Of a stretch of DNA of 64,000 bases, positions 20,822-60,629 are shown in pieces. Position 1 is the first letter of the stretch. Each line of letters starts with the position of its first letter. The notes below the pieces were generated by a model. It searched no databases and was not told the DNA's origin. It was given only the letters and a program-made list of their open reading frames with translations. Made by a program: the position numbers and the translations under genes. The DNA lies in the NCBI GenBank assembly GCA_028532985.1, contig JANCIK010000012.1, positions 1,488,001 through 1,552,000 of the forward strand, in the 5' to 3' direction. The stretch is from Stropharia rugosoannulata (taxonomy: Eukaryota > Basidiomycota > Agaricomycetes > Agaricales > Strophariaceae).

Positions 20822-20826
20822 GTCTG

Positions 20827-21972: not shown

Positions 21973-22440
21973 CACATAGGACAGTGCCTGGGTACCGTAA
22001 TCTATAGTGCTACAGTGAACTATTATTATACCGTAGATCACGGAGTTATTTTGAGCCATTGCAGAACTAGTATACTACCGTGTCACACGGGACTAATAGC
22101 TTTCTAGTATATTACCGTGTTTTACGGGGCCATTGTCGACAAATGGTGATGGTCGTCAGGGCAAGATCAACCGGCAGTTCTCTATGTCGAGCGGCGGTGT
22201 CAAATGGCAGATGGGCTGTGCTAGACCGGTGATTTCGATCGTTGACCGGCGCTATTCAAATTCAATATACTACTATTTTTCAGGGGACCAGTGTGAGGCT
22301 AGTATATTACCGTGGTTCATGGCTGATTTTGAACAAATGATTGTATGAAAACTGGCGGTGCATGATGAGAATCGCCGGTCTGGAATAATAAATGGTATGG
22401 GACCATAAATTAATATACTACTATACATCACGGGACTATT
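21973..22440 (+). repeat. KDZ-1 left terminal inverted repeat
   Basis: It pairs with the right end at 32880-33351. The outer 80 bases are shared with KDZ-2. Inside are about six spaced repeats of the type TAGTATAYTACCGTG followed a few bases later by CACGGGACTA. Such subterminal repeats are typical transposase-binding sites. Confidence 0.85.
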
Positions 22441-22502
22441 GTAAATTATTCTAAATTTGTCTATCGAGACCGCCGGTATGCACAAGGCAAGATGTGGAAG
22501 AC

Positions 22503-23802
22503 ATGAATTTTCCTGTGGCCCGTTCATTGACACCTTTCTTCTCAACCACCATGCAACCCACTTCTGACAATAGTCCTATTGATCTGACAGCCTCTGTATC
22601 CTCATTCATACAGACATCTGTCCGTTGCCGCATTAATCAGACTAAAATTAATTCCCCCCCATCGTCATGGGCTGCACAATTAATATGGGAATGTAATGAT
22701 ATTGTTGATACACTAGTTATGGCATATCAAAACCAATGTGAGCCTGGACTTACCTGTGTTTTAAAGGACATTACTGATATATGCTAGATTCAACTATATG
22801 GAATGTACATGACTACATTCAGAGCTTGACAAATAAACAGACTGGCAAGAATGAGGCTGTTGAGAAAAAAATGTTGAAGAAGTTTCCGCCTATATTTATG
22901 GAGGAGAGATACATTAAGACACCGTGCATTGTAACAGATAGGGATGGGAATATTTTGGTATGGTATCTACCTAATGCCATGATGTCGTATATGCAGGTAG
23001 GTGATGACAATTGTTGCACACAATGAGGTCTGACCGTCTGACTGCCGGCCAGTACGGTCTATGGGAGAATTTAGATCAACTGACCCCATTAATGAAGACC
23101 ACAAGAAATAATTCAGACTGGAGAGGTGGCCTGGCCAATTATCATCAGAAGGCAGCCTGGAGGAAGCCAGGAAATGTGAGTCTTGCCTTAGCATGGTTTG
23201 AAATGGGCTATGGGGTAGGTCTATCTATAATTGTAAATACAAGAGTTGATGAATGTGTCCAGATGTCGTTACCGCCAGTTGTCAGCAAAAATATCCGTAA
23301 GGCCGCCAGTGTTACATGGCTTCAACAACAACATATGTTCTTTGCCCTTGTGGGTGGTCTACTAAGTGTGGTTAATCCTAGCCAATATGCCGCCGGTCTC
23401 AGGATGCTGACATGGCTAGGTGAACACCCGGACCAGGTTCGGCATGGACAAGAGCTGAAGAGTCTATTGGAACACTGGAATGTGCCTTTTGGCATGCTCA
23501 CAGTGATCAACAACAGAGACTCACCACCACATCGTGACACCGGCGGCAGTCACTCGATGTTCGACATTGTCATCAGTTTGGGGACTTATAAGAAGGGGAC
23601 AATGTCACTGCCTGGATTGGGCTTGGATCTTCATTATTGGCCCGGAACAATAGTTGCCCTATCGAGCAGGGTAGTTGTTCACAGTGCATACTGTAAAGGG
23701 GATCGGACTTGTCTTGTCTTTCACTCAAAGTCTACAATGGCAGACTATACAAATACTCATAGCACTTGGCCTAATGTGAATATGTTTAAAAGCATAAAAT
23801 GA
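22503..23802 (+). CDS. TET/JBP-like 2-oxoglutarate/Fe(II) dioxygenase
   Basis: Three exons (22503-22737, 22788-22996, 23053-23802) with GT..AG introns of 50 and 56 bases keep one frame of 397 codons. The C-terminal 250 residues show the TET/JBP double-stranded beta-helix: HRDTGG (His308 and Asp310 as iron ligands), a LPGLGLDL strand, WPGTIVALSSRVVVHSA (His358), and DRTCLVFH with Arg366 as the likely 2-oxoglutarate contact. TET and JBP enzymes oxidise 5-methylcytosine or thymine methyl groups in DNA. Fungal expansions of this family are known to accompany KDZ transposons. The N-terminal 150 residues are unassigned. The gene opens toward the left terminus and is absent from KDZ-2. No inactivating change is visible. 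Exon 1 start is the least certain point. Confidence 0.83.
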
Positions 23803-23978
23803 TTAAATTGTATTTGTACATAACAAAAATTGGGCAAACGGGGAAATACAAAAAACTAATTAACAAGAAGACGAGATGATGATACAACATGAAGAAGGGG
23901 ACCGGCGGTGCAATGGATCGAAAATGGGATGTTGCCTGCCTAGACGTCTGAGTCTGGTTCCCCATCTGCATCTGCATC

Positions 23979-26018
23979 CTAATCATCATCATCAGAAGTA
24001 GAGGAGTCTGAGTTGGGGCTCCAGGTAGAAGGAAGTGATGTGCATACCGAGCTATTGTCCGAGTCATCGTCATCGGTGTGGACATCTAAATGCCGCCGGC
24101 CACACCGCCGGTTGTTAGTACAGCTCGAATCTGTCATAAATATTAAGACTTACACATCGGTGGTGAATCTTCATCCCCACTCTCATTTTGCAGGAGATGA
24201 AGTGTATCATCTCCTGGTGCGGGAACCTCCATGGGGGCCTCATCATCCTCATCAATCTGTTCAAGCGCTTTATGACCGGCAGCGACAATTGTTGAAATCG
24301 AGGGCTCATCTTCCCCATCACTGATTTCCATGGGCGTCCCTGCCTCTTCATTGTCATCGGCCGTCAAATCGATGGGTTGATGCGGGGTATTGCTGTCAGG
24401 CATCCCATCTCCAAGTTGTGGCCTTTGCCCAATGAGACCGGCGGCCTGCAAATCAAGCTCCCTCTGGATCGGGAGTGTTGTGTCGACCAATTGTGGAGTG
24501 GGTGTCCTCCGCATTGGGGGTCGTCTCCCCTCCAGGCTAGCCCGGTAAGCCTCCATTTCTATGGCAGAGGCCCGTCCAGGTTTGGTGACATTGCATTTGG
24601 GGAGGGGTCTCGCAGGCAAGACCACCTTGTCCGCCGGTACGTCCATCGGGGGTTCATCTTCATCATCGGTCTCCTCACCATCTGTCGTGCACGCAGATTC
24701 ATGTTCATCTGCTTCGTTGTCCCCTTCATCCTCTTCGGTTCCTTCACCTTCATCATCCACGTCCTCTGCGACTGGGACCTCCATTGGCGGCTCGTCTTCA
24801 TCCAAGTCTGGCTGGATATTTGATGGACCGGCGATGTCACCACCGGCGGTCGTTGGCTCATTCATGATTGTCGCAATGGTGATTTCTCGCCCCTTCCCTT
24901 TGCCAATGTGGGTATCCGCGACAGGCCTTTGCTGCACTGGGTCATTGATTATTAATCTGCCATTGGCGAATGGCTTCCCGGCAATGTATGCAGCCAGCTC
25001 TTCGACAGAGGCCACGCCTGAACGAAGTTGGAATGTGCGTGGGGCTGTCGTAGGACCGGTGGGTGAATTCGAGAATTCATCCGACATCGTGGAGCTTCCC
25101 TGAGATGATGACCCAACCGAGGGACTAGCACTGCTGTCTTCTGGCAGTGGGCTGATGAATCGCGGCAAGAGACAGTTGCGTCCTGCGATTCCGGGGAGAG
25201 GTTCCTGGGGGGGATAGGTGTAGGTGTTCTTGCCCGGCGGTCGAAGGTTCTCCCATATGCTCTCCCTGGGCTCTTGAGGCCCACCTTGCTGTCCCCGTTC
25301 GAACTCGCCCTTCAACATCTTGAAATAAAATTCAAGCCATTCTAACTTTTCATCCTTCTTCAAGCAGGATTCACAAACTTGATCGAGTGTTGGGTTGGAC
25401 CCTGCCGGCCTTGCTGCGAGTCCTGGAATCTCGACCCATGGCACTGGACTGCCAGGGAGATCTGGCATTTGGTGCATGTTGTCGTGGAAATCTATCATGA
25501 AAGTTAGAAGTATCTCGAAGTGGTGGCAGATGGAATCGGCGGTGACTTGGTAGTCCTCGATATCATCCACCGGTGCGAGCCACCAAATAGGTGTTGTCTC
25601 CGTCATTGACATTAGCAGGACATCTTCTTTTCTCATGAACTCCGGGTTGTAGGCCGGCGGAATCAGAATGCCATTTGGCCGGCGGGCGATGCCGTAACCG
25701 TTGATGGCCAACTGATCTAGTAGATACGGCTGCCTCATTCGGTATCCTTTCATTACACATGTTGAAATGTGAATCAATGTGAATTCCTGAATAGAACTGT
25801 TAACTGTGAAGCAATAATCAATAGATAAAACTCACTATTTCCTTCATAAACAGGCGGGCATAGGGGTTATCATGGCGAAGCTTGCCACCAGTGATCGAGT
25901 ATCTGAGGCCACAGCGGATGCGAAACATGCAGAGGTAAAGAAGCAGGTTGCACTGCACATGATCGATGTGGGCGTCTTCATCGAGGATCGGCATGGGGTT
26001 GGTGTTTGAAGAAGACAT
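23979..26018 (-). CDS. Element protein with acidic PPMEVP-type repeats
   Basis: Exons 26018-25836, 25786-24154 and 24085-23979 give 640 codons in phase. I do not recognise the N-terminal 230 residues. They are helical, rich in Trp and Tyr, with a Cys pair (VCESCLKKDEK) near residue 200. The C-terminal half is disordered and acidic and repeats Asp/Glu-rich (E/D)PPM(E/D)VP units about five times. The last exon is Asp/Ser-rich. The same three-exon layout and the repeats occur in KDZ-2 (55653-58792), so the gene belongs to the element family. It has no visible enzyme motif. Its role is unknown; a protein-docking function for the repeats is only a guess. Confidence 0.75.
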
Positions 26019-26117
26019 TGTGATGAGAAGGAGTTTGAGTAGCCGTGGAGGTAAAAATGAAAGACAAGATCAACAGTGCAGAGATGGTTGATTGATAAGG
26101 TCACATGTATTCATTCC

Positions 26118-27122
26118 TCAGGCCACATGATACCAGTGGCTTATATAATGTACATGTGCCTTACTAAATCTAGCATCTGCTACCCTACCTAATTCATTCC
26201 ATAAGTTGATCTGTGCCTGTGCATAAGCCTGGAAACCTAGTGGGTGAGCGTTGAATTGGCTGGCAGCGTCATTTGATGGGTTTTGAATGGCGGTTACTGC
26301 ATCTGCCCAGACATTCCGCCGGTCTTTCCACATATTTGCCATATGCACATAGAACCGGACTGTCCAGTCCATTTCATGCTGACATAGAACAACCTCTTCC
26401 TCCCAGCGCATTTTCTGTGCTCTTGCTCATAGCCAATGAATTCAATAGACTACAATTGTATTTAGGCACAGCTTGATGAATATCAATAAAACTTACAATC
26501 ATTGATTCTTTCGCAATTGAGATTTCCTGCGACCGGCGGATTATCATCCGGCGGATCCATATTATGTTCTATTCTCCATATCCAAGCCATTCGAGAACTG
26601 CTACCCCCCCTTGCATTCGGTTCAGTTATTGATGCACTAGTATTTGTATCAGCTTTTGACATGATGGGGAATTGTTGTTCTCTGACCAGCCATTCTCTAA
26701 GAAAATCGTTTTGCGACTGCACAATTTAATATATGCAGTGTGCAATTCATGTGGGTGATATAACATACCTTGCCTCTGTATACTGGTAAATCCAAGTTTT
26801 GTAGGTTTTCGATAACCTGATCCTCAGTTATATCTCCAGCATAGTCTAGACAGTCAGGTACTTCCTGTGGTTCAAAGCCTGGTGGAACATCTGGAATAGC
26901 AGGAATAGCAGGAATAGTCGGTGCTACATTCTCTGCAATGGGTTCCCCACCACGTTTGCGCTTCTTTGTAATGACCTTTCCTCTATGGTCCCGCTCTTCT
27001 ATCTGGATGCCACCAGCTTGATTTGGAACATTGTGCTGGGTTATACGGACACGGCGCATTGGGAGTAGACAGTTGCGTGTGCATTCAGTGTTCGACCTTA
27101 TATTAAGAAACCAATGGCACAT
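26118..27122 (-). CDS. Small protein ending in KDZ transposase C-terminal domain
   Basis: Three exons (27122-26769, 26716-26497, 26425-26118) yield 293 residues in phase. Residues 119-293 match the tail of KDZ (Kyakuja-Dileera-Zisupton) transposases as I know them: a segment before MAWIWRIEHN, then SRAQKMRWEEEVVLCQHEM, then GFQAYAQAQINLW and SKAHVHYISHW. The RNase H-fold core with the catalytic acids is missing. The first 118 residues are unrelated, basic (KKRKRGG) and Pro-rich. Either the core was deleted and a new 5' exon acquired, or this is a domesticated accessory protein. Its start lies 95 bases from the divergent pseudogene at 27218, so the gap may hold a shared promoter. Confidence 0.68.
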
Positions 27123-27217
27123 GTGTTCTGCCTCATGTCGTTATCAATAAATGTATCTATTTTAATCTACTTATAAGCAGGAATGCATCGGTCTATTTTT
27201 TCATCCCTTTCCCCATA

Positions 27218-29569
27218 ATGCCTACACCAGAAGAAACCCCGGCCTCTACACAGATATGGACAGCGAAGGAGTTGGAGATTTTGAGGGATCATGTCGAGGG
27301 ATATCGTGCACAGGTCAAAGAGCGGAAGGGCACTTTCCTCGCTGAAAAGGTCATCAAAATGATCAAAGCATTGTGGGGATCATGATACAAAAAAAGTAAT
27401 CCCAATTTTGATGAAAAGATGCAAGAGGAATGGAAGAAGAAAAAAAGGGTATGCCCCAAGCAATGTATGCAATGTAACGCCTAATGCTGTAACAGTCAAT
27501 ATGCAATTGGTTCAAGAATAATGCTAAGATGTCGAGGCGCATGAAAATTAAAGGTTTTAACATGGATGTTACCTTTGACTCTGTTGTCATTGCACGTAAA
27601 GGCAAGGAGATTGAAGAGGAAGCAAAGCGCCGTGCACGGAAGGCACTGGGCGGGAGTGATCAGGAATCTGATGGTGATGACGACAGGGTCGCGGATGATG
27701 AGGCCGGCGGTGGGGCCGGCGGTTACAGTAGCCGTTCCTGGATCAAATATTATGCAGGGGCAAAGAAGTATATTAAGGAGATGCTGACAGATGAGGAACA
27801 AGATGCAATCAAAATGGAGGTGATGGAATGGAAAGCGAAGGGTGTGCCACCAGAGGTTCAAGCCAAGTCAGTTTTTAATTACACCGCCGGTCCATTACTA
27901 AGAGACTATATAGACAAGCTGTGAAGCACTGTTCAGACATTTGTCGTGAAGTGGATAGGAAAATGTTTGAGAACATGGGTGTGAGATCACTCTGGATCAC
28001 AACTTTTGATAAACCAGATGGACATGCTACATTCACAATGTGAGCATCTCTGCAGTTGACATGAATGTTCCTGACCGCCGGTCAGCTACGATACCCAGGT
28101 AGTGCAGCCTAATGCGCCAATGAATTTTCCCAGCTTTCAAGAATTTGATCCGAATAGCTACACAGCAATTAGGACCAGTTACATAAAATACATTGAGCAC
28201 ATCACTGCTCTCAAGCGTGGCGAGGCCGCCGGTGCCGAATCTGTAGAACACCAGGCCAGCTCTCATCCATCAGGGATGCCCTGGATGCCTGCCTATAATC
28301 CAAAGGAACGCAAAGAAAGTCTCAGGGTCATGCAGGGGATGATCCGCAAGTACTACGGATTGCACTTCGGTATGTGTATATGTTTTCAACGTAATTTGAC
28401 AATTAATGTATGTACCTGATTGAGTAGCACTAGCAACGAAATCATCCAGGGGCCCACCGTACACATCAATCAAAAACAAGCACAATTGGCAGGACTTCGT
28501 CGACCCTCTCTACATGCCTCATGGCATCTCATTTCGGGACCCTTCATCATATAACAGGTCAACAGCATTTGATATTCTCAATCTCATCCGCCGGCGCCAA
28601 GCGGCAAATGAAATTCCCTTCAAATTTCATGCCATTCCTAATGGCGCTGTTGAACCGGTGCCTCAGATGTACCCTGAAGAGTTATTCACATCATTTGCTA
28701 TACCAGACCCAGACCTCGGGATGAATAGAGAGGATGATATCAGTTTGGCTGACCTTCAACAAATGGCAGAAGTCTACACTGATGACTCTATCACCACAAA
28801 GTTGCAGGATAGTGATGCACCGCCGGTCATGATTCTCGATCGGCGGCCATCAGATGATGACAATATGTCAGGAAGTCCAGCACCCCTGACGAGACTCAAG
28901 CACAAGGAGTCATCCATATCTGAAGACAATGTGGACTGCCGGCCTAGACAAATAACTAATAGGATTAGATCCAGGTCAAGATTCATTGCAAAAAAGTTTA
29001 TTCTCAAGAATCGTAAGGGTAAGAAGAAAGAATCAGTTTCGGAACATGATTCAGATGTGGAGGACCAGTCAGACAAGGTGGAAGAATTAAGAGACCGGCA
29101 GTTAACATCTGCATCAGGATCAGATGACGACCGCCGGTCTGACAGCAAAGATGAAGGACCCAGCAGAAGAAATACATTCTGTGCCCAGAAAGGCAGACCC
29201 CCTGGACTGCGGGATATATCGAATACAAGGGATAGAAATCAGTCAAGGGTAAGAATTGTCGAACCTGATGCAAAGGAAGGAGGAACAAAGCAGACAAAAC
29301 ACAAGACTGTTTCCAGAGGACGCTCACACAGCAAGAATGGAGATGGAGAAAGTGAACGCCGGTCTTCCAGACGAATTGCTTCAAGACCGGCGGTCTCGGA
29401 TATCAAGAATGTGGTTGAAGTCAAGAGGCACCGAGGACGACCAAAGTTAAGGGAACATGTTGACAATGCTCACGGCATGCGCCATTCAGTAGCCTCGTGC
29501 CGACCAGCCTCGACTGACCACAACAGTGGCCACAAAAAATCTTCAACAAATAGACGATCGGGGAAATAA
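27218..29569 (+). pseudogene. Multi-exon AT-hook protein, decayed
   Basis: The frame begins MPTPEETPAS with a Trp/Leu-rich helix (27218-27448), then continues from 27496 (WFKNNAKM), through SWIKYYAGAKKYIKEML, a segment near 28102-28368 and a last exon 28430-29569. TGA at 27383-27385 interrupts exon 1 and a one-base shift occurs near 27915. The layout recalls a common basidiomycete family of unknown function with a WF motif and long helical body. The C-terminus is Ser/Arg-rich and carries KRHRGRPKLREH, whose RGRP core is an AT-hook. The gene lies inside KDZ-1 and is missing from KDZ-2. Confidence 0.65.
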
Positions 29570-29922
29570 TGAAACTGCCGGTCTCACCGCCGGTCTCACA
29601 TGTCACAATCAGTCGAAAATGTACATAAAGTTACCTAGGGATAGATATATTGTGATACATTTAAATTAACTTCTAACCTGACATGACGCCGCCGGCCACA
29701 ATTTGCAACTTCGCATATTAAGGACTTCACACATTTTGCATCAATGTATATTTTTACCTGACTTCACTCAGACTGATGTTTACAAGCAAATGTCAAAAAA
29801 TTAACTTTACTTTGACTTCTGAAGTCAAAGTTTCAAGATATACTGATACATTAAATTGCCCTTGATTTAACTTCAAGGGGCGGTATATACAGACAAAAAA
29901 AAATCGAGACGCAAGGAGGATG
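29570..29922. other. Non-coding spacer in KDZ-1
   Basis: This AT-rich stretch lies between convergent genes. It has three copies of the CCGCCGG motif near its left half and an A-rich run at 29895-29903. I see no reading frame. Confidence 0.6.
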
Positions 29923-32185
29923 TCACCGGCGGCCTTTGGTGCGAGTGCACTTCGCCGGTGGCTCCTCGTTCTCCTCACCCTCATTCCCTCGCTTGGCACC
30001 GGCGGTCATCCCTGCTGTCTTGCTCTTTCCTCCACCCTTCCCCCTCTGACTCCTCGTCTTCTTCACAGGCGCCTCAACCTGCGACACCGAGTCCAGCTCA
30101 TCCTCCTCGCTGGCGCCCTCGTCATTGTCTCCCCCCTCAGCCTTCCCATCCCCCTGCTCGGTGGGCGACTCTGCAGCCATGACCATAGGCGTGTCGCTGT
30201 CAGTGCCCACGTTCTCCTCGTCTTCTTCTTTGTGTTCTGGGGACTCAGGAGGCGGTGTGCGCACCTCGATGAGATCTTGGGCGGAGGGGGCAGGTGGGCG
30301 AGAAGGGACAGGCGAAGGGGAATGGGCAGGGGATGGAGACGGGGCAGGTGGACGGTGCAGGACCGGTGAAGGCGATAAAGGAGGGGGAGTGGGGGCCGGT
30401 GGTCCTGATGTGGCTGGCGGTCCAGTCGACACCGGCGGTGGCGTCTTCCGAGGTACTTGGATGTCGAACAGCGTCATCGACCTTGATTTCGGCCGTGACG
30501 TCTGTGCGACGACCTGCTCCAGCAGGCTCCTCAGAGCCCGCTGTCCCTCCATCAACTCTGTCAGGGCTTGCCCATGCCCCTCAACCACCACCTTCAACTC
30601 CTGGACCTTGTCTGTCAGGTCCTGCGCATCAGCCCGTATCGTCGTCAGTTCCTCGACCGCCTCCGTTGTCTTCTCGAGCGTCTTCGAGAGCTCCTGGTTC
30701 TGGCGCTGAAGCGCCCGAACGTCTGTTGTCGCGTCGTCGAATCCGCGCTCGACGTTGCAGGTGATCACTCGCGTTTGCTCCAACGTCATCATAATGACGT
30801 CCCCGACGTTCTCGGCGTCCGCGAAGACTTTCTTGCGGTCCTCGTCGACGTAGCGACTCAGGTGGTGGTCCCAGGGGGCGACTTTGTCGGCCAGTGTCAT
30901 GGCGCCCGGCGTCTTGAGGCAGGGCTTCTTGTACATGTATTGACATGTACTACAAGCCCTGACGGGGTTCTCCTGCATTTCCTTCTCATGCTCCGGGGAC
31001 TCGACGTAGCAGGGTGTGCCGCGATTGATACAAGACCAACAAGGCGTCTTGGTCTTGTAGCAATCGGCGGGCATCCGCCCCTTAGACGCGGTAGATCGCG
31101 CGCGTGCCTTCCCCTTGCCCTTGGCCGCCGGTTTCCCATCGGACTTGCTGTCATCGTCCACTTGCCTCGATTTCCTCGACGCCGCTGTCCTCGCCTCTGG
31201 CTCGCTCTGGGTCGCCTTGCCCTTGCCCTTCTTCGTGGGATGCTGTACCTCTTCCTCCTCGTCCTCGTCGTCCTCGTATTCGCTTTCATCGTCCGTGTCC
31301 ACGACGAATTCATGCGATTTTGTTGCCGCCGGTTGTCTAGACGGGCCAGCCACCGGCGGCCTGGTGGCTGGCCCCTTCGCATTCTTGGCCTTGGGCTTGA
31401 CAGTGGCCTCCTTCTCGCTGGCCTTGACACCGGCGGTCGCCTTTGCCTTCTTCTGCTTCAGCACCTTCTGCAAAGGCAGCGCCACGACGACCTCAACAAC
31501 GTCTTTGAATGCTGCTGGGTGTGCGCCCGTGGGGGACGGTGTCTTCTCCCGTGTCGCGATTTTCGATGACTTCGCCTTGGCGGCGACAGGGGCAGGTGGT
31601 GTGGGAGGGGGAGAGGCAGGCGCAGGGGGGGGTGGGGAGGCCTTCTTCGCCTCTGTTGCTTTGGCCGCCGGTGCAGCCTTGACCGGCAGTGCAGGCTTCA
31701 CCCCGACAGTCGCCGGTCGATTGACTAAGAATGTGTCAGAAATGAACAAAAGGTTATAATATTTATTACTCACCAATGATAGGCATGCTGCCTATATCCA
31801 CTTCCACCTTCCCCTGCTCCTGCCTCCGTAGGACGTATAGCCCTGTCTCCACCATCTCCTTGAATGCGTCCCAGCGCACGTTGTCTGCGTCTCGGCCATC
31901 GGAATTCGCGTCCTTGGACAACAGCTTGCGCACATAGTTGTAGAGCATGAGCCCTACAGTGCGCCCAGCAGCCGACTGCTTGCGGACTTGAAGTTCAACC
32001 TATTGTTAATGAATGGTCAGTAAACTAAACATAGAACATGTAACAAAAAAACTCACCAAGGACTTCCAAAGTCTGGACCTCTCCTTCAAAAACAGTTGGC
32101 TCCCTCCCTCCCAAATTCGCACACAGTCGTGATGGAATGCGACGATTGCGTCTCGGATTTCAAGGTTGCTGTGAGACGAAGCCAT
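29923..32185 (-). CDS. Zn2Cys6-like cysteine-cluster protein with coiled coil
   Basis: Exons 32185-32057, 31999-31774 and 31724-29923 give 718 residues in phase. Residues 1-118 form a helical domain (MASSHSNLEIRDAIVAF). A Pro/Ala/Lys-rich linker follows. Near residues 340-395 lies CWSCINRGTPC, an 18-residue loop, then CSTCQYMYKKPC. The spacing C-x2-C-x6-C-x18-C-x2-C-x7-C is that of fungal Gal4-type binuclear zinc clusters except for the longer loop. A heptad-rich coiled coil (about 430-520) comes next, as in many dimeric zinc-cluster factors, then a Pro-rich tail. The KDZ-2 copy keeps the same exon lengths (129 and 226 bases), so it is under constraint. I infer DNA binding, perhaps to the element's CCGGCGG sites. 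The exact function is unknown. Confidence 0.72.
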
Positions 32186-32879
32186 GAAGAAAGGTAAAGG
32201 GAATTATTGAGAAGAAGAGGACGCGGGGTGTGGGAGAGAAGAGAAATGTTCCGTTGATGGCTGTGCGCTATTATAAAGTTCAACCATCTACAAATAATAG
32301 TCAACATTCCCACGCAAAGCAATCAACAGACTTCAGCTTTTCAAAACCAAAGGCAACATCTGGACATCGCCGGTGCATATCAATAATGTGCATTTTTATA
32401 AAAAATTTGTCACTGGTGTGGGCTACCATAGCATAATAATTAGGTATATACCTTTAGCCAAAACACATCGCCGGTCTCAGTTAGACCGGCGGTGCATAAT
32501 ATTGTTGTACGATAATCTGGGCAGGTATGGCCTCAATTGTAATGGTCTATAATATTGTTATTATGCTGGCTAATAGTCATATACTACACTTGCAACGGTC
32601 CCATTATGCATAGTAGTATATTCATTTCATGAGTATGAACATTGATCACCTGAGACCGGCGATGTATACAACACCTCTGGTTTCCAATTTCCAACAATCA
32701 TATGTGCAACATGAGCCCATATACCATTGTAATATACCAGACTCACAGATGTATAGGAGTATCTTAATTTATGGTCCCAGACCATTCATTATCCCAGACC
32801 GGCGATTCTCAGCGTCCACCGCCGGTTTTCATACAATCATTAGTTCAAAATCAGCCATGAACCACAGTAATATAATAGC
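32186..32879. other. KDZ-1 right subterminal non-coding region
   Basis: AT-rich DNA with several CGCCGGT sites and TAGTATATTAA-type repeats. A unit of 148 bases starting AATTTATGGTCCCA at 32766 is repeated at 32914, so part of the terminal repeat is duplicated in tandem here. I see no gene. Confidence 0.65.
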
Positions 32880-33351
32880 CTCACACTGGTCCCGTGATGT
32901 ATAGTAGTATATTAATTTATGGTCCCATACCATTTATTATTCCAGACCGGCGATTCTCATCATGCACCGCCAGTTTTCATACAATCATTTGTTCAAAATC
33001 AGCCATGAACCACGGTAATATACTAGCCTCACACTGGTCCCCTGAAAAATAGTAGTATATTGAATTTGAATAGCGCCGGTCAACGATCGAAATCACCGGT
33101 CTAGCACAGCCCATCTGCCATTTGACACCGCCGCTCGACATAGAGAACCGCCGGTTGATCTTGCCCTGACGACCATCACCATTTGTCGACAATGGCCCTG
33201 TAAAACACGGTAATATACTAGAAAGCTATTAGTCCCGTGTGACACGGTAGTATACTAGTTCTGCAATGGCTCAAAATAACTCCGTGATCTATGGTATAAT
33301 AATAGTTCACTGTAGCACTATAGATTACGGTACCCAGGCACTGTCCTATGT
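32880..33351 (-). repeat. KDZ-1 right terminal inverted repeat
   Basis: This is the inverse of 21973-22440, ending CACTGTCCTATGT. It includes the same TAGTATAYTACCGTG subterminal units. The sequence beyond it (GCGAGCTCCGC) does not continue the gypsy pol frame. Confidence 0.85.
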
Positions 33352-33837
33352 GCGAGCTCCGCATGAATGGCGAGTTGCCTCAATAGCACGGTAAATTGGC
33401 GAGCAACAGCAGTGCGCTGATATCGGAGAGCCATAGCAGAGAGCAAAGAAACTCTCAACTGGGGACAGTTGAATTTATAGTGGGGGGGAGAGATGGCCTA
33501 GCCAAGCAGGGATAAATCTAGGAGCTTAAGGAGATAGGACAGAGAGATCAGGAGCTCAAGATGGGAGCGGAAGCTGTTGGGCACATACCTGCAAGTGCGC
33601 GCCTGGTCATATGCGCGCATCGCACTTGTACTCGTGCAAAAGAAAACTGGCTGTTTTTGAGAAGAAACAAGGTGCTTAGGATCACACAGGAGGAAGATAA
33701 AAAGAGAATTGTAATTCCAAAGCATATAATACTAGACAAAGCTATTCTACATATGCTAGATAGAATAGTAAGGGAGGGCACAAGAAAGAAAGATAAAAAG
33801 AAAAACAGGCGCCAAAATGCGCGTCCCACAGCAAGAC
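33352..33837 (+). other. Gypsy internal remnant with polypurine-like tract
   Basis: No pol domain is readable. At about 33459-33492 the phrase GGGGACAGTTGAATTTATAG followed by TGGGGGGGAGAG closely resembles the true 3' polypurine region at 36366-36395. The antisense gene therefore lies between two polypurine-like tracts. Confidence 0.55.
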
Positions 33838-35851: not shown

Positions 35852-36395
35852 GAAGCTTGATGGTTCAGGGAAAGAGAAAAGTAAGGGAAGCAGTAAGGGT
35901 GCAGAGAGGGAAGCGAGAGAAAGAAAGAACGAGAGGGACAAGGAGGACTTGTTATATACGCAGGAGAGAATAGCGAAGGAAAATTCTGGAGTATGGGAGA
36001 AGCGGACGGCGATGAGCGCATGTCGAATAAACTTACCGGCAATATGCTAGGACAGCGGGATGCAAAAAGAAGGTCCAGCAAGGTCCAGAAAGGAAAAGAA
36101 AAGGCCTGACTAGGAAAAATGACCCAAGGAATTCAGCGGGAGGTGCGGTGCGCGTATGAGCGCGGTGGCGGTTGTCTAGAATAAGCTAGTCGAGAAAGGT
36201 CGGGTAGGGATACCCAAAGAGGAAACCAGGAGGCTGGGTAGAGATAGTGACTCAGACGGAAGCGCCATATTAACCACATAAGTCAGTAGCTGAGCCGTAA
36301 TGCAGGACAACGGGGTACGGGTGAACTGTTATCAAGGAAGCGATGCGCGCATCTGAAGTTGACTGAGGACAGTCAAGATTTTAGTGGGGGGGAGA
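35852..36395. other. Upstream of antisense gene, ending in 3' polypurine tract
   Basis: This is non-coding DNA. It would contain the promoter of the antisense gene near its left part. At 36384-36395 AGTGGGGGGGAGA lies directly before the 3' LTR and serves as plus-strand primer site. Confidence 0.65.
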
Positions 36396-51536: not shown

Positions 51537-52420
51537 CACATAGGACAGTGGCTGGGTACCGTGATCTATAGTAGTACAGTGAACTATTATTATACCGTGG
51601 ATCACAGAGTTATTTTGAGCTAATGAAAACCTAGTATATTACCGTGCTACACAGGACTAATGGGAAGCTAGTATTTGACTGTGAATTACGGGGCCATTTT
51701 CAACAAATGGAATTGCCACTGGGGAGAACAACGACCGGCAATTGAAGGACATAACTGCCGGTTTGTTCCACTAAATGTCAGATTTTGAACCGGCGACTGA
51801 TCAAGATTTTGTTGTAATATTACAAAATTGTATCCATTGGCCGGTGAATGTCATTTAGGCCGGCAGTGTCATGTTCAGTACCCGGCTGCCTGTTGGATAT
51901 TCCATTTGAAACCGGCAATCCATTTAATAGTATGATTCTTGACCGGCGATTTTCAGATATGCAGCCGGCATCATTAGTCGTCAGCTCCGGCTGCCTGGTA
52001 CAAATATGGCCGGCTGTTGTAAGCACAAATGCATCAGTGAATCACATGATCTGCTATGTGTATGATGGATTTGCCGGGGTTCTAAAAGAATGTAGACTGG
52101 CAGTGAGACCGGTGGTTCTGCCTCATCGACTAGTGTTCATGTTTGGTATGTCATGCTGCATACAGTGACATAACTAGTATTTTATTCACGCAAAGATACA
52201 GTCTGAACTGGTCTGAACAAATAGTGTTTAAATCTACAATATGGCCGGCAGTTGCACATTACAGAGTCGGATTACCTGGTTTACATTATATATACACTGT
52301 CACATATTGGGGTACATCTGAAATACTTGAGCAAATCAAATGACTTACCTTCTACAGTCTGACTAAAGGAGTATCCTGAGACCGCCGGTGGGTTGCCGTT
52401 TTCATTTGATCATTTTGTCT
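51537..52420 (+). repeat. KDZ-2 left terminal inverted repeat
   Basis: It pairs imperfectly with 60630-61502. Matching blocks include the outer 80 bases, the TTTATTCACGCAAAGATACAG block near 52180 (inverse near 60850) and the block with GAGACCGCCGGTGG near 52380. Confidence 0.8.
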
Positions 52421-52700
52421 ACTTGGAGACTTTGTCTGAACTAGTCTAACCAAGCGGTCTTTACATGAAACACAAGTTGTGGCTACTTGAGGCTGGCGGA
52501 AAAAGCCGGCTGCCTTCAAACTTTACATGGCAAGGATCCTTGTTGAATGGCGGCATGAGAATGTTGACCGTTATTTGTACAATGTTCATTTTTATAATAC
52601 CAACCATCCATCAACGGAACTTTTCATCTCTCCCACACCTCCGTACCCTCTTTGAAAACATGCTCACCCCATCCACTCCCTTTCTAATCACTTCCAAACT
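52421..52700. other. Promoter-side spacer of Zn-cluster gene
   Basis: Non-coding. The last 120 bases resemble the region upstream of the KDZ-1 homologue (near 32190-32290), including CCATCAACGGAAC, and probably hold its promoter. Confidence 0.5.
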
Positions 52701-54735
52701 ATGGCCTCATCACACAGCAACCTCAACATCTGCGCGGCACTTGTCGCCTTTCACCATGACTGTGTCAAGGTCTGGCAAGGAGGTAGCCAGTCATTCTTGA
52801 AGGAGAAGACAAGGATTTGGAAATCATTGGTAAGTCTAGTTCTTTTTATTGAAGTATTACTTTCTTATTTCTTTGATAGGTTGAACTTCATGCAAGGAAA
52901 CAGACCCCTGCAGGCCGTGCAGTGGGTCTCACTCTTTACAACTACATACACAAGTTGCTGCCGAAGGATGCGAACACGGACAGAAGGGATGCAGAGAATG
53001 TCAAGTGGGAATTGTTCAAGGAAATGGTGGAGACCGGGTTGTATGTGCTCCGGCGGCAGGAGCAGAGCACGGTGGAGGTGGACACGAAATCCATGCTAAT
53101 CATAAGTGAGTGACAAAAATATCTTCACCAATGTCTACTGAACTTTGTATAGCTGAGTGCCCAGCCGCGGTTGGCATCACACCAGCGGCGTCATCATCGA
53201 AGGCTGCACCCGCCCCGCCTGTCGCCGCCCCTGCCCCTCCCCCTGCACCATCACCGGCCCCCATCCCTGCCATCAATCCTGCACCTGTGCCCGCCCCTGC
53301 ACCTGCACCTGCCACCAAAGTGGCAAAGAAAAATACAAAGCTGGCAACGAGGGAGAAGACGCCCTCCCCCACAGGCGCGCACCCGGCGGCTTTCAGGGAC
53401 ATCACAGAGGTTGTCATTGCCGTGCCACCCTCAAAAGTGCCAAAGATCAACAGGGCAAAGTCAAGACTTGAGGACAGCGAGATCGAGATCATGGAGAAGC
53501 CGGCAGTCCAGGCACCGGCGGCGAAGAAAAACATCACCAAGCATGTGCCTGTCAAGGCCGCACATGGGCCTGTTGCCAAGCCGCCGGTGGCGGGCCCATC
53601 AAAGCACAGGGTGGTTGCAAAGTCCCGTGAATATGTCATCGACAGCAAGGACAAGGAGAGCGAGTACGACGATGAGGAAGACAATGAAGAGCCCCGGACA
53701 CGGCGCAAGGCAGTGAAGGGGGAGGGTGTCCAAAGCAAGCCCGAGGCAAGGCGGAAGGCAACGAGGATGGCACACAAACGCGAAGACAAGAGCAAGTTGG
53801 ACGTCAAACCGGCGGCCAAGGGGAAGGGAAAGGCGTGTGCAAAGTCAAATAATGCCAAGTCCTGCCTCCCCGCCGGTTGCTATGCGACCAAGACCCCCTG
53901 TTGGTCTTGTATCAACAGGGGGACGGAATGCCTGGTTGAGTCACCGGAACACGAAGAAGAAATGCACATCAACCCCGTATGCGCTTGTAGTACATGTCAA
54001 CACATGTACAAGAAGCCGTGTCTGAAGACACCCGGCGCGATGATGCTGAACGACAAGGTCGCGCCCTGGGCCCACCACCTGAACAGGTATGTGGATGAAG
54101 ACCGAAAGAAGATCTTCACCAACCCAGAGAATGTGGGCAATGTGCTTGCCATGACTTTGGAGGAGACAAGGGCGCTGACTTGCAATGTGGAGCAGGCGTT
54201 CGATGACGCCGCCAGCCAGCTGGAAGGCCTTCAATGCCAGAATACAGAGCTTGCAAAGACACTGAAGACGACGACAGAGGCCGTGCAGGAGCTCACCGAG
54301 GTACAGGCAGAGGCACGTGACCTTGGCGAAAAGGTCGATCAACTGTCGTTGGTCGTTGCAAGGCACGGAATTGTGCTGACAGAGGTCGTCGAGGGACAGC
54401 AGGATCTCAGGACCCTGCTGGAGAAGGTCCTAGAGAAGGTGAGTAGGGCACTGCCGGTCGAGACTCAATCGCCGGCCTCGGGCCACCCCCGACAAAAGAT
54501 GGCACTGTCGGCTGAAGAGACGACCGTGGGCTGGGGACTTCCTGCCATGCCCCTCAAGCCTGTCAGCCATGCTGCCCCCGTCCCCGCCCCCTCACTGCCT
54601 GTTGCACCATGGGCAGAAACTCCCACAGTGCTGTCTCCCTCGCCCCCTCCACCCCCAGCCAAAGAAATCGAGTTGGGCAGTGAAGAGGACAGTGAGGGTG
54701 ATCTGCCACTTGAGGGGTGCATCGGCCCAGGATAA
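52701..54735 (+). CDS. Zn2Cys6-like cysteine-cluster protein, KDZ-2 copy
   Basis: Exons 52701-52829, 52880-53105 and 53153-54735 give 645 residues in phase. Exon 1 and 2 lengths equal those of the KDZ-1 homologue. The helical N-terminus, Pro/Ala linker, CWSCINRGTEC and CSTCQHMYKKPC clusters and coiled coil are all kept. The cluster spacing is identical. The C-terminal tail ends early, at a point where the next gene's exon begins only 22 bases later, so a deletion has removed the original tail and the intergenic region. The frame is otherwise open and could be expressed. Confidence 0.72.
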
Positions 54736-54757
54736 ATCTGTTCTCTGCCGGTTACAG

Positions 54758-55551
54758 AAAACAGAGCTGAAGATTAGGAGAGCTCATGCTGATGATTTAT
54801 TAGAATCCATTCGTGGAGAAATCATTCAGAAATCTTGGCTATATGCATTTGATGTCAGGAGAACAGATGGTGCCCACCACACTCGAGCACAAGATCGTGT
54901 TTTGCTACTCATGCAGGCAACTAGTACACACCGGTGGAAATATAATGAGAACAGATTGTCAATGCTTTGTCTTGCCCGGCGTGAAGATGACCGGGCTAAC
55001 ATTGAAGCACAGTTTCCAGCCATGTCAAAAGCTGATACAAATACTAGTTCGTCCATTACAGACCCTAATACTCGAGGGGGCAGCAGTGCAAGAATGTCCT
55101 GGATTTGGCAGGTGGAGCATAACATTGCGCCGGCAGTCGATGGAAATCTGAACCAGGAAAGAATTAATGATTGTGAGTATCATATTTATTTATACAACAT
55201 TTAACCAATACAAATGTAGTCTATTGTATTCATTGGCTACGTGCCTGTGCACAGAAGATGTGTTGGGAAGAGGAGGTCCTACTCTGCCAACATGAAATGG
55301 ACCAGACAGTCCGCTTCTATGTGCATATGGCTAATATGTGGAAGCTCCGCCGGTCTGTATGGGATGAGGCAGCCGGCCACATTGATCACACATCAAATGA
55401 TGCCGCCAGCCAACTCCTATGCCACCCACTTGGCTTCCAAGCATACGCCCAAGCACAGATCAATTTATGGAACAAATTAGGCAGGGTGGCAGATGCCAGA
55501 TTCAGTAAAGCACATGTAAATTATATAAGCCATTGGTATCATGTGGCCTGA
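54758..55551 (+). pseudogene. KDZ transposase C-terminal fragment
   Basis: One exon (about 54758-55172) starts KTELKIRRAHADDLLESIRG and includes SWLYAFDVRRTDGAHHTRAQ, the segment preceding the tail in KDZ transposases, which is lacking in KDZ-1. It continues to MSWIWQVEHN. A last exon encodes MCWEEEVLLCQHEM to HYISHWYHVA (stop at 55549-55551). The acceptor used in KDZ-1 (TGAG) reads CGTG here, so in-phase splicing seems lost. The catalytic core is missing. Confidence 0.7.
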
Positions 55552-55652
55552 CCAATACATGTGACCTTATCAATCTACCATCATCCCATCTGCAGTGATC
55601 TTGCTCTTCATTTTTACCCCCTTGACAACCAAATTACCGCTTCAAAAGTACC

Positions 55653-58600
55653 ATGTCCTCCCTCGCCAGCTCCATCCCCATGCTCAGTGAAGATGCACGT
55701 ATTGAAAGTGTGCAGTGCAATGTATTGCTTTATCTGTGCATGTTCCGCATCCGCTGCGGATTGCAGTACTCTATTGAAGGGAGGGAGCTTCGCCACAGCA
55801 ATCCATATGCCCGCCTTCTAATGAAGGAGATTGTAAGCTTTAATTAATCCATTCATTGATACTATTAACATTTTGTATACAGGAATTCACATTGATACAC
55901 ATCTTGATGTGAGTCATGAAAGGTTACCGGCTGTGCCAACCCTATCTTCTGGACGAACTTGCCTCCAATGGGTATGGCATCGCCTGGTGGTTTGATGGGA
56001 TCATGCTACCGGCGGGATACGATCCCGAATTTTTGCACCGTGAAGATGAACTGCTTCTGTCGATGACAGAAACAATGCCAGTCTGGTGGTTAGCACTGGC
56101 TGACGAAATGCTCGACTACAACAACACTGCTGCGTCAATTCGCCATCACTTTGTCATCCTGTTGACGTTCATGCTCGATTTCTATGATGCTACAAACCTG
56201 ATGCCAGATCTGCCAGGAAGTCCAGTCCCATATGTGGAGATACCTGGATTGGCACGACAACCGGCAGGCAACAACCCAACTATCGAGCAGAGGTGCGAAC
56301 CATGCGCACACAAAGACAAAAAAACTTGCATGGCTACATTTTTATTTCGAACTGCTGAAGGCTGAATTCGAGAGGGGACAGGATGGTGGGCCTCAAGAGC
56401 CCAGAGAGATGGTTTGGGAGAGGCTGGGCCTGCCACTGGCATCGACATTTGTTTACCCCCTGCTGGCCCCCAACCCTAATGTCTTGGGGAGAAATTGTCT
56501 TTTCCCACATTACATTAGCCCACTGCCAGAAGAGCCGATCTTGCTACAATCGAGCAGCACCTCGTCGTCGTCAGACACTGCCGGTCCATCGGATCAACCC
56601 AGGACATTCATCCTTCAACATGGCACAGCATCTGTTGACGAGCTGATGAAATATCTGCGTGGCCGAAAAGCAAAATACGGCAGCTGGCATAGAGTGCAAA
56701 GAAAGGGCTCAGGCTGCCGATCCCCCTATGGCCGAGGGTGAGGACATTGAGGACAAAGATGATGCACCCATGGAGGTGCCTGAAGGGGAAGCATTGGCAC
56801 AGAAGTCCAATGCACCAATGGAGGTGCAGCAGGGGAACGAACTTGAAGATGAGGACGATGCACCAATGGAGGTGCCAGCAGACGATGCGGACGAAGAAGA
56901 GGACGAGCTGCTGATGACTGTTCTGCCAGCCACTGACATCCTTACTGCACAGCCACCAGTAAGCAACACACCAGAAGATGTCACATCAGATGAGGACGAC
57001 CCCCCAATGAATGTACCTGCAAGTCAGGCAACAGTGATCACCGGCAAGGATGACAAGGATGAAGATGAGCCGCTGATGTCAGTGGCTGCCGATCCCATTA
57101 TTGAGATCAGCAGTGATGATGAAGATGACCCCCCCATGAATGTGCCGGCTGCGCCCCTCATGGGTCATTATCGCACACAAGATGACAGCGATGATGCTGA
57201 CTCGCCACCAATGAGTAAGTGCCTTGATCCACAGCGACCTGTAGTTTTGACCAATATTATTAGACATTGAGAGGTCTGCCGCAGGGCTAGACTCGAATCA
57301 CAAGAAACACAACACACACAACCCCAGCAGAGCGAGATCCTATCCCCTAGATCAAGTGATGCTCTTCAGCTATGTGGGTTATAGATGTCTATGCTTCTCC
57401 TGGTACCTCTCCGCTGACCGGACTGTGATGTTTAAGGGTCTCATAAGTTCAGTCCAGATGTCTGCTGTACAGTGCCTGCAAGTTTGTTTTTAAGGAGGGG
57501 TTCAATTCTAGAAGTCACAGATTAATGTCTGGGCGACCTCCGCTGAGTGCAGGGTATCAATAGTAATGTATAGTTTTGATGGTGGCTCTGCAGGGCTTAT
57601 TCTGCTGAGTGGGTTTGAGGTCCGGTGACCAATGCAGATGCTCACACAAGCTGGTATTCCCAATTGTGCCTCACTCTGCTGACTATCCAAAGTCGTTCTG
57701 CTGGGACTGTCCAAAGTCCTATTCTGCTGATGCTATCCAGAACCTTGTTCACCTGGTGGTGCAGTCTCGATTCACAAAACACTACAGCGCAAGTTTTCGT
57801 ACACGGTTGCACTGACTCCCTGCTGAGCTCTCCAAATGACCTGGTGGCCTGAAGCTATCCAAAACTTCTATAATTCACAATACACTTCACAGTTAAAACC
57901 CTAACAAAAGCTAAACACAGCCTGCTGACGGTCTGGGACGAAGCCCAACACATAGATCTAGTGGGTAGACAATTGCTTGATTTCTGTAGTTACAATTACA
58001 AGTTTATATAGACAGGCCCTGTGTACTAATTTAGGTGGAGAGTCCATACTAGAAATGCCGGACCAAAGGTCTGCTGAGCGCATGTGCCTCCGCTGGGTGT
58101 TTTGATGACTACTCTGCTGAGCATGACCTGGGCCTGTTGTGTTGCCAGACTCCATCGAGAGACATTGTTAAACTCCGCTGGGCAGTTCCTTCTTGGTCAT
58201 CGAGGCCTGGCTACCGCTGCCAAAGTTCCCCAGCAGAGTCCGTGCTGTGTGCATTGTTTATTCCCTCGGGCATCACATGCTCCAGTGCACGCGCCACGGT
58301 CACCTGACGAGTGGACTTAGGCAAATTTCGCCTTCGTGATGTGTTCTGCTGAGCCCCCTTTGAGATGCTGTCTACACACAGTCCTGCTCATCACCTTTGA
58401 TATTTTCTGCTCAGCTGTACTCCTGCCGTCCGCTGGGGAGACAGTAACTGTTATGTACTCTGCTGACAGCTATTCCGGGTGCTTCAACTGTGTACTTATG
58501 ACCTGTACAGTCCGCTGAACCCCACGCAACCGTCCGCTGAGCACATGCGTGAAAGATTTGTGATACACATGCTGAGCACTGAGGCGGCTGACCAGGCTAG

Positions 58601-58792
58601 TCACTGCTCTGCTGTACCCTGGCACACCAGCCCAAAACGCCTGCTGTGGCTACATTACAGCTTTGGTGTAAACGCAGGCCTGTCAACGTCCCCATTGATT
58701 TCGACAACGACAACGCCAGTTCAGTAGGCACTTCTCTTCCTTCCACCTGGAGCCCCAACTCAAGCTCCAATTCTGATGATTATGATGACTAG
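55653..58792 (+). pseudogene. Acidic PPMEVP-repeat protein, KDZ-2 copy, interrupted
   Basis: Exon 1 (55653-55832) matches the KDZ-1 gene. Exon 2 from 55883 meets TGA at 55910-55912, then resumes as MKGYRLCQPYLLDE and shifts frame at an A run near 56326 and again near 56660-56740. The repeats (DDAPMEVP, DDPPMNVP, DEPLMSV) are more numerous, about seven or eight. The last intron and exon are split by the solo LTR 57268-58685. The final exon begins at 58686 and ends at TAG 58790-58792 with the same SLPSTWSPNS tail as KDZ-1. Confidence 0.75.
57268..58685 (-). repeat. Gypsy solo LTR with variant motif
   Basis: A 1418-bp inverted LTR runs from TGAGAGGTCT to GCCTGTCA, homologous along its length to the gypsy LTR at 17490-18684. 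Flanks ACAT and ACGT fit a 4-bp duplication ACGT with one CpG transition. Instead of GCGCGC palindromes it carries some 15-20 copies of TCYGCTGRG. No internal gypsy DNA remains. Confidence 0.83.
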
Positions 58793-58898
58793 GACGCCGA
58801 TGCAGATGGGGAAGTGGACTCGCAGGTCTGAGCATCTTGCTGACCAAATTTGTCCCATCGCATTGCACCGCCGGTCGTCCTTCGTCATCTTGTGTCTT
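58793..58898. other. KDZ-2 DNA downstream of the repeat protein
   Basis: Non-coding and alignable to 23880-23978 of KDZ-1, including the shared GCACCGCCGGTC motif. Confidence 0.6.
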
Positions 58899-60378
58899 TG
58901 TTGGAGTTGGCCAAGCCAGCATCGGTGATGGAGCTCATTAATTGGAATGGACATTAGTAATTAGATTACTAATCTACCTACATACAGAATTTTCTAGTAA
59001 ATATTCCGTAGTGTATTTAAGCGCTCATAGGGCAACCCAATAAACAACCTTTTATTCGTCTATCTTTCCAATAGGTTATGAGCCCTGACACTCAGTAACT
59101 GACTCGCCCTCTCTTACTGAACACTGCGCACCCGTTGTTCTATTTTTGTCACCATGATGTCACTCTCTGATTGCATTATCTCTGGCGTCACCAAACTCGA
59201 TGGGACCAATTACCACGACTGGAAATTCGCTGTCAGTATTGTACTTCGATCACGTGGTTGCTGGGAGGTTGTTTCTGGCATGACGAAGAAGCCGAGCAAT
59301 GTGAAGGAGTTGGAGGATTGGATGAAGAAGGCCGAGGATGGACTTATGATTATTGGACTCACCGTGCAGCCGAGCCAATACATCTACATCCGAGACGCTG
59401 CCGATGGTGCTGCAGCATGGGAATTGCTTCGATCCGTGCACGAGAAGAACAGCCGAGCAACTCGCATCTCACTCAAGCAGCAGTTCTATGGCTTCGAGCA
59501 TGACCCCACTATGCCAATGCAGTCATATGTCAACAGCATCACGGACTTGGCTGGCAAGCTGAAGGCAATTGGCATCACCCTGACTGATGAAGAAGTCACC
59601 GATGTTTTGATCTTCAATTTGAATGCTGATTACACAAGCATCGCATCTACTCTCACGGCTTCAAAGGCAGACTTATCAATTTCTGACGTCACAGGTGCAT
59701 TATTGGAGGAGGAACGCAGGCGAGGCGGACCACTTGAGACCGAGTCTGCAAATACAGGACTTTATTCAGATGGTCGAGGCCCTCCTGGACGGAATGGACC
59801 TTACCGAGATCGAAGGGATGGACTGGCCAACAACCAGACATGTTACCGCTGCTGCCGCACTGGTCACATTGCCAAATTCTGTCATGCAACGACGTATGCC
59901 GACGGGAGCAAGATTCTGGCTGAACCGGAGAAAGCCGAGGACAGGTCATCTTTTGCTCAAACAGTGAATGAGACACTGAACGACATTATCACCTATTGAG
60001 TCAGATTTATGGGAAGGATATTTAGGTTGCAGATGCTGTGTGTCTGCATAAGTACATTTTGGTTTGTCGATGCTGTGTGCCGACATGTGTGGGATTATCT
60101 TGATACCAGATGCTAAGTGCCTGGGAATTTCGGAGCGGATGCTGTGTGCCTGCAAACTTTGATGAACAGTGAAGAAGATACCAAATGCTGGCTTGAGGGG
60201 GAGTGTTGGAGTTGGCCAAGCCAGCATCGGTGATGGAGCTCATTAATTGGAATGGACATTAGTAATTAGATTACTAATCTACCTATGTACAGAATTTTCT
60301 AGTAAATATTCTGTAGTGTATTTAAGCGCTCATAGGGCAACCCAATAAACAACCTTTTATTCGTCTATCTTTCCAATA
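58899..60378 (+). mobile_element. Gag-only copia element with both LTRs
   Basis: Two 175-bp LTRs (58899-59073 and 60204-60378, about three differences), TGTTGG to CCAATA, are flanked by a perfect 5-bp duplication GTCTT (58894-58898, 60379-60383). The initiator-tRNA primer site GGTTATGAGCCCTG follows the 5' LTR and GAGGGGGAG precedes the 3' LTR. The only gene is a 281-codon Gag. It is a complete, non-autonomous element of the kind described in plants as terminal-repeat retrotransposons with a GAG domain. It must borrow pol from another copia. Confidence 0.88.
59154..59999 (+). CDS. Copia-type Gag of gag-only element
   Basis: 281 residues with the copia Gag start (LDGTNYHDWKFAVSIVLRS), helical core with FEHDPTMPMQSYV, and a CCHC knuckle CYRCCRTGHIAKFC near residue 230. 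It stops at TGA 59997-59999 with no protease or pol downstream; the next 200 bases hold four short repeats of the type GATGCTGTGTGCCTG before the polypurine tract. The frame is open, consistent with recent mobilisation. The 5' LTR supplies its promoter. Confidence 0.87.
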   Translation: MMSLSDCIISGVTKLDGTNYHDWKFAVSIVLRSRGCWEVVSGMTKKPSNVKELEDWMKKAEDGLMIIGLTVQPSQYIYIRDAADGAAAWELLRSVHEKNSRATRISLKQQFYGFEHDPTMPMQSYVNSITDLAGKLKAIGITLTDEEVTDVLIFNLNADYTSIASTLTASKADLSISDVTGALLEEERRRGGPLETESANTGLYSDGRGPPGRNGPYRDRRDGLANNQTCYRCCRTGHIAKFCHATTYADGSKILAEPEKAEDRSSFAQTVNETLNDIITY

Positions 60379-60383
60379 GTCTT

Positions 60384-60629
60384 TTGTTTTGTTTTTTTTG
60401 CTCCATTTATGCAGTTGTGTATTCATATGTACTTGCATGATTAATTTCATTGAATCTTTTTGAACATGTTTATATTACCCCAAGCAGGTTTTCAGTCAGT
60501 TACATCTGCAAATGTAGATTTTCTGCAAAAAACTAAGCATAACCACCACTTGGTTAGTCAAGGTTAATGGGCTAGGAATTAGCCTGTATCCATTTGGCCT
60601 TGATGTCTTAGAGCCTTATATGCTTGAAG
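60384..60629. other. KDZ-2 spacer where the dioxygenase would lie
   Basis: AT-rich and non-coding. In KDZ-1 the corresponding interval, between the repeat-protein gene and the terminal repeat, holds the TET/JBP gene. No trace of it is visible here. Confidence 0.6.

Follow-up and report, generated by a model that had tools for sequence, protein, structure and literature searches.

Three described systems come closest to the locus reported here. TET-bearing Kyakuja transposons of Agaricomycetes combine a KDZ transposase with a TET/JBP dioxygenase, which has been proposed, speculatively, to act without target specificity (Kojima 2025, PMC12730594). VANDAL transposons of Arabidopsis carry a dense, family-private motif with subgroup variants, and their VANC protein changes with its targets (PMC5735166, PMC10398659). 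Fungal Zn2Cys6 proteins typically dimerise through a coiled coil and bind pairs of CGG triplets in inverted, direct or everted arrangement (PMC5559640). The 64,000-nt stretch analysed here (the window; contig JANCIK010000012.1 of the mushroom Stropharia rugosoannulata) contains a Kyakuja-type KDZ transposon of subfamily A that is interspersed with the word CCGGCGG. This is a real word, private to one clade of Kyakuja (KDZ) transposons. With a probability of roughly 0.55, we read it as the site bound by a predicted zinc-cluster protein that the element itself encodes in gene 4, serving self-recognition and likely anti-silencing.

The element family resembles TET-bearing Kyakuja transposons in its KDZ transposase, TET/JBP gene, CA..TG termini and a 7-bp target site duplication in a subfamily-C copy, and differs from two Laccaria Kyakuja families described, in the parts of PMC12730594 considered, as lacking terminal repeats. 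The sections of that paper covered here describe no dispersed word; the VANC paper is in its reference list, and its text holds no instance of 'zinc', 'VANC' or 'coiled'. Nor did the top-ranked papers from searches of the open-licence literature include one on a dispersed word or a Cys6 reader in KDZ elements. As in VANDAL/VANC, a short family-private motif is found at high density in self copies and in subgroup variants, and an element-encoded protein, here the candidate reader, varies along with its putative target. Unlike the VANDAL motif, which is mainly non-coding and arranged in same-orientation tandem repeats, the KDZ word bears a CpG, lies also in the open reading frames (ORFs) of several genes and occurs on both strands; moreover, the host is a mushroom, the transposase is of the KDZ type, the candidate reader is a Cys6 protein, and motif binding and demethylation are putative in the KDZ system. 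With Gal4, Leu3 and Pho7 (PMC5559640), gene 4 shares six spaced cysteines, a predicted subsequent coiled coil and a putative CGG-bearing site; it differs in its longer inter-lobe loop, in lacking both a Pfam match above cut-off and a significant fold match, and in being transposon-encoded, with sites throughout the element.

CCGGCGG or its complement occurs 37 times in the 11.4-kb element, roughly every 200 to 300 bases and its own genes included, compared to 13 times in the window outside it. When the element was shuffled with a first-order (dinucleotide) Markov model, the mean was 0.73 and the maximum 3 occurrences (100 shuffles), and even a third-order null, already holding the word's own tetramers, a mean of 5.3 and a maximum of 13 (60 shuffles). 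The original prediction, made by eye, had counted about 36 sites against about 1.4 expected for uniform composition; the count was accurate, the expectation is 0.73 by shuffling, and the density it pointed to indeed lies above dinucleotide and third-order nulls and, in nine of 12 ORFs, above a codon null. It had also placed the word in coding as well as non-coding DNA, which holds, and in the terminal repeats, where just one intact site (in the right repeat) was found. Its description of the surrounding DNA as nearly devoid of the word is true for most of it (two sites spread over ~42.7 kb), but not for an overlooked second, decayed element, which accounts for 11 of the 13 outside sites. Sites were distributed over both strands (plus/minus 18/19 in the window copy, 35/27 in A and 30/36 in C), and their gaps had a coefficient of variation of 0.79–0.92, i.e. 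near random placement with no clustering toward the element ends. In the window element, A preceded the core at 28 of the 37 sites, and T or C followed it at 30.

Genome-wide, ACCGGCGG showed no overall excess (1406 occurrences in 47.97 Mb vs. 1393 for the reversed control word), and among 100 of its places listed, all on C1, 43 fell within three element stretches totalling ~35 kb. A first sample of 63 loci (3.4–3.7 kb per clade locus) included 14 KDZ loci with 12–21 sites and 13 TET loci with 9–15 sites from the clade, 15 other KDZ loci with none, 11 other TET loci with 0–2, and seven decayed clade loci with 0–3. Two near-complete copies, in which the word would be expected if it marked the family, contained 62 sites in 14.0 kb (subfamily A, its right end lying outside the stretch) and 66 in 13.3 kb (subfamily C), with none in their flanks (1.46 kb to the left of the A copy; 0.54 and 0.92 kb next to the C copy). 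Across subfamilies A, B and C, the density amounts to 3–5 per kb. The word's value as a marker of the element family is thus borne out, being dense in clade copies without a genome-wide excess.

As the gene 4 stretch is GC-rich (0.60–0.62), the word might merely reflect the base composition or codon usage of GC-rich coding sequence. When synonymous codons were permuted within ORFs, however, the observed count surpassed the maximum of 300 permutations in nine of 12 ORFs (e.g. A transposase, 12 vs. 1.1; A gene 4, 10 vs. 2.2; C gene 4, 13 vs. 2.5); two of the remaining three tied with that maximum (A TET, 3; C KDZ piece, 4), and one was a short frame without sites. Such an artefact may account for single frames (such as A TET, one C KDZ piece, and the D-family frames of L071), but is very improbable as a general explanation, given that dinucleotide and codon nulls are exceeded, that sites occur on both strands, in all frames and outside ORFs, and that the control word GGCGGCC reached only 0–2 per locus in all 63 loci. 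Taken over the entire A and C elements, it is ruled out by the dinucleotide, third-order and codon nulls.

Between A and C, individual sites were conserved better than other 7-mers. In gene 4, five of nine sites were kept, compared to fractions of 0.06–0.07 for control 7-mers; corresponding values were 17/20 vs. 0.44–0.55 for the KDZ locus, 18/22 vs. 0.39–0.49 for the KDZ half, and 2/4 vs. 0.09–0.10 for gene 3. Between A and B, sites in the transposase core were kept no better than other 7-mers (16/21 vs. 0.71–0.77; 11/21 vs. 0.48–0.70). The central base was almost invariably G or C: CCGACGG/CCGTCGG occurred once in A and not at all in B or C, against 62, 40 and 66 CCGGCGG sites, respectively. 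Same-strand site pairs 12 bp apart were overrepresented (four in A vs. 0.14 expected; three in C vs. 0.12).

Presence of the word coincided with that of gene 4. Among 30 KDZ loci sampled from the 123 KDZ matches, 14 had gene 4 within 20 kb and 12–21 sites, and 15 had neither gene 4 nor a site; the lone exception to this agreement (29/30; Fisher P 2e-7) was a degraded locus (L031) with gene 4 and two sites. This test used 29 of 39 gene 4 rows, the ten omitted being second pieces of included places, except for C1:2276665, which lies >50 kb from all 30 loci. Gene 3 homologues (46 matches) included some beside KDZ/TET loci without CCGGCGG.

In Zn2Cys6 proteins, the cysteines are spaced C-x2-C-x6-C-x5-12-C-x2-C-x6-8-C. 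Gene 4 has the pattern C-x2-C-x6-C-x18-C-x2-C-x6/7-C ahead of a long predicted coiled coil, and its Cys6 cluster is conserved in A, B, C and the second window element. The coiled coil is predicted from a model of a gene 4 piece with a helix at residues 79–193 of that piece, mostly at a predicted local distance difference test score (pLDDT) above 90. For the Cys6 region, model confidence was low (pLDDT 54.8), Foldseek's top matches were to Pho7 (E 2.2 and 3.4), VIA-align returned no match, and a sequence search against solved structures gave nothing meaningful. The Pfam Zn_clus cut-off was not reached by the corresponding proteins of the J family (16.9 vs. 21 bits), the D family (no match) or A gene 4 (no match at E up to 1). 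No gene 4 homologues were found in the protein database and no relatives of the element in viral contigs; beyond this genome, KDZ relatives were found as proteins only (best 71%; nearest named, Flammula alnicola, 52%).

The bases flanking the word differed between subfamilies. Outside the transposase core, a purine preceded 26/26 and a pyrimidine followed 25/26 sites in the right half of A, with a looser preference in its left part (17/19 and 13/19) and a similar one in C (47/50 and 42/50). In B, T or G preceded 24/28 sites and A followed 21/28, compared to 10/95 A and C sites with A at +1. Inside the core, flank preferences were mixed in all three. A and B are 94.5% identical over the transposase core, 69% at the DNA level over both TET and the stretch leading up to gene 3 and entering it, and ~40% at the protein level in gene 4 (L010 vs. 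the A copy L064+L065). Since so similar a core sits between diverged flanks, cassettes have likely been exchanged between these subfamilies. The flank preference appears to shift along with gene 4 divergence between A/C and B. These comparisons also bear on the idea that the words are binding sites of the transposase (KDZ/CxC2) for cut-and-paste, spread through the element. The transposase is an invariable component of autonomous copies and each C terminal repeat holds several CCGGCGG sites, but we consider this unlikely, as sites do not cluster near the ends and the A and B preferences outside the core differ despite nearly identical transposase cores.

We favour gene 4 as the reader because word and gene co-occur in KDZ loci and flanks shift with its divergence; because Cys6 cluster plus coiled coil resembles Zn2Cys6 factors and the word holds CGG triplets; and because of the G/C central base, the 12-bp pairs and A–C site conservation. 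The gene 4 protein would coat element DNA at CCGGCGG words and so pick out self copies, its Cys6 cluster presumably binding zinc and, as a coiled-coil dimer, the near-palindrome [A/G]CCG-S-CGG[T/C]; the B-type target would be CCGGCGGA. By analogy with Arabidopsis VANC, and more weakly, binding may open chromatin and counteract silencing of self copies, such anti-silencing being the most likely purpose of the predicted binding. TET/JBP would act as an optional helper rather than an obligate effector. Alternatively, the word could recruit a host factor (a chromatin boundary, a methyl-CpG reader or a host zinc-cluster activator), with different families exploiting different words. A gypsy long terminal repeat (LTR) element indeed has its own dense CpG palindrome, TGCGCGCA (19 in 8.7 kb, none elsewhere in the window), which occurs 2784 times genome-wide vs. 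633 for the reversed word. The tight co-occurrence with an element-encoded gene and the flank shift with its divergence make a host factor quite unlikely.

The original prediction had instead named the dioxygenase as effector: the word would mark methylated CpGs for the element's TET/JBP, limiting oxidation to self DNA. TET/JBP ORFs are present in A (the translated window copy shows an HRD triplet) and B (65% identical to that of A), and C-to-T changes in ten copy comparisons affected 537/2484 CpG cytosines vs. 322/11570 other cytosines, the mark expected of CpG methylation. Still, this role is not supported. In subfamily C, the densest in CCGGCGG, TET is reduced to a 30-residue C-terminal stub (L066+L067, C element 12288–12377); because the C terminal repeats are nonetheless 98% identical, C has probably transposed in recent times with no TET in cis. 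The J and D transposases have no TET/JBP Pfam match closer than 60 kb, and two TET-bearing F loci lack a clear word in 3.4 kb each. Finally, in decayed copies, motif CpGs changed like others (122/536 vs. 415/1948; Fisher P 0.48), i.e. no shielding was seen by a method that is blind to young active copies. We thus judge marking for TET improbable; as an obligate partner of the word, TET is ruled out by the C stub and by J and D.

In decayed copies (e.g. L031, L050, L051, L055, L060, L062, L063 and the second window element, 51537–61502), C-to-T decay was strongest at NCGY, and the commonest decayed form of the word was CCGGCAG. An apparent strand asymmetry in word decay is mostly explained by this context, leaving a weak residue at the minus-strand CCGC cytosine (64/134 vs. 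35/108, P 0.018).

Several other KDZ families had words of their own. TCGGCG occurred 16–19 times per 3.8 kb in J, and 28 times (3.2 expected) in a further 6.6 kb stretch, with none in the next 1.4 kb; TCGGCC occurred 11–13 times per 3.7 kb in D, and 33 times (6.2 expected) in a further 7.9 kb. The codon null was exceeded by J frames of L018, L030 and L070 (two frames) and by the D frame of L022; the D frame of L028 tied and three of L071 fell short. L032 featured GCCGC (22 vs. 6.6 expected) with TTGCCGC (10) and TTCGCCG (7), and E featured TCGGCG (13 vs. 3.4 expected), the E and G words being graded weak. De novo searches revealed no convincing word in H, F, L004–L006, L033 and L053, and nothing beyond a GACGACGA triplet run in L007.

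Searching with the D Cys6 protein (E up to 0.1) yielded 20 matches spread over 18 places, of which 14 lie no more than 10 kb from a KDZ match. Families J and D and the C8 and C9 elements each have a Cys6 frame upstream of the KDZ transposase together with dense TCGGCG or TCGGCC; six cysteines are present in these as in A, B and C, with loops of 13–18 residues and, in the C9 frame, a stop within the loop. Expected words for C8 and C9 had been written down before their sequences were inspected. In C8, which encodes a D-like Cys6 protein, TCGGCC was the top word as forecast (34 vs. 5.8 expected). C9 had a strong CGG word, also as forecast (32 vs. 3.9 expected), but its core, TCGGCG, was that of J, joined by 22 TCGGCC, counter to the forecast of a different word. 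As the C8 forecast held and that for C9 half held, the pattern suggests one word code per lineage, with some cores common to several lineages and flanks partly different. The pairing of a Cys6 frame with a dense CGG word in J, D and the C8 and C9 elements, and the C8 forecast, further argue for gene 4 as the reader.

More tentatively, and with the odds in our view somewhat against it, each KDZ lineage might write its own CGG-based word as a self-address through both coding and non-coding DNA and encode a fast-diverging Zn2Cys6-like reader that guides anti-silencing, with TET/JBP interchangeable, losable or supplied in trans. If so, fungi would have independently invented VANC-like targeting, in the form of a code constraining protein sequences themselves; DNA-level marking would then constrain what an entire mobile element can encode. 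The question bears on why TET/JBP genes are so numerous in fungal transposons and by what means their products would locate self DNA. With a dense word in each lineage and a Cys6 gene that accompanies it, self-targeting can be tested directly.

Assignment of the window element to the Kyakuja-type KDZ transposons is based on its ~470-bp terminal inverted repeats (21972–22442/32883–33353; 471 nt, 99% identical), its CA..TG ends (CACATAGG..CCTATGTG), its TET/JBP ORF, and its near-identity to KDZ-bearing copies. Full copies of A, B and C have a KDZ domain, and none of the 123 PF18758 matches in the genome falls in the window. Having lost this domain in a ~2.76 kb deletion, around which it is 98.4–99.5% identical to full copies (98.7–99.5% to five KDZ-bearing A copies), the window copy is a recent derivative and presumably non-autonomous, retaining TET, gene 3 and gene 4. 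The C copy has GACAAAC on either side, a perfect 7-bp duplication; at the window copy, CAAGCTG and CGAGCTC agree at 5/7 positions. The inverted ends of the second element lie at 51538–52420 and 60628–61502.

Table 1. Features of the window and distribution of CCGGCGG sites; ORFs are stop-to-stop frames, not exon-intron models.
Feature	Position	Strand	Basis	CCGGCGG sites
Subfamily-A Kyakuja-type KDZ transposon (copy with internal deletion) within LTR retroelement	21973..33352		Inverted arms, ends, near-identical A copies	
Left terminal inverted repeat	21973..22442	+	Inverted-arm match	
TET/JBP dioxygenase ORF, 264 aa	23008..23802	+	PF12851, E 6e-16, residues 107-239	2
562-aa ORF, putative 3' part of KDZ transposase gene	24143..25831	-	Order/strand match frames in A, C; weak in E	6
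KDZ remnant				3
Deletion junction, ~2.76 kb incl. KDZ domain gone	26680..26681		Comparison with full copies, e.g. copy on C2	
Gene 3 ORF	28424..29569	+	N-terminal ~100 aa occurs in several KDZ families	4
Gene 4 ORF, 622 aa: Cys6 cluster and predicted coiled coil, candidate word reader	29923..31791	-	Near word-rich KDZ loci; predicted helix	8
Cys6 cluster of gene 4, CWSCINRGTPC-x18-CSTCQYMYKKPC	30901..31071	-	Six cysteines conserved in A, B and C	
Right terminal inverted repeat	32883..33352	-	Inverted-arm match	1
Elsewhere in element (introns, spacers, small exons)				13
Second, decayed subfamily-C element	51537..61502		Pieces 82.9-97.7% identical to C1 copy	11
Gene 4 homologue of second element, 541 aa, frame still open	53110..54735	+	Cys6 at 53869-54039	

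The KDZ insertion lies within a gypsy-like LTR retroelement (17490–21972 and 33353–37605) whose LTRs are 97% identical; this retroelement is the one with the dense palindrome TGCGCGCA. Elsewhere in the window, AT-rich arrays of AAAAAGACAT/GTCTTTTT repeats are located at 44.9–45.9 kb and 50.3–51.3 kb; the same repeats are the top words of loci L001, L031 and L055.
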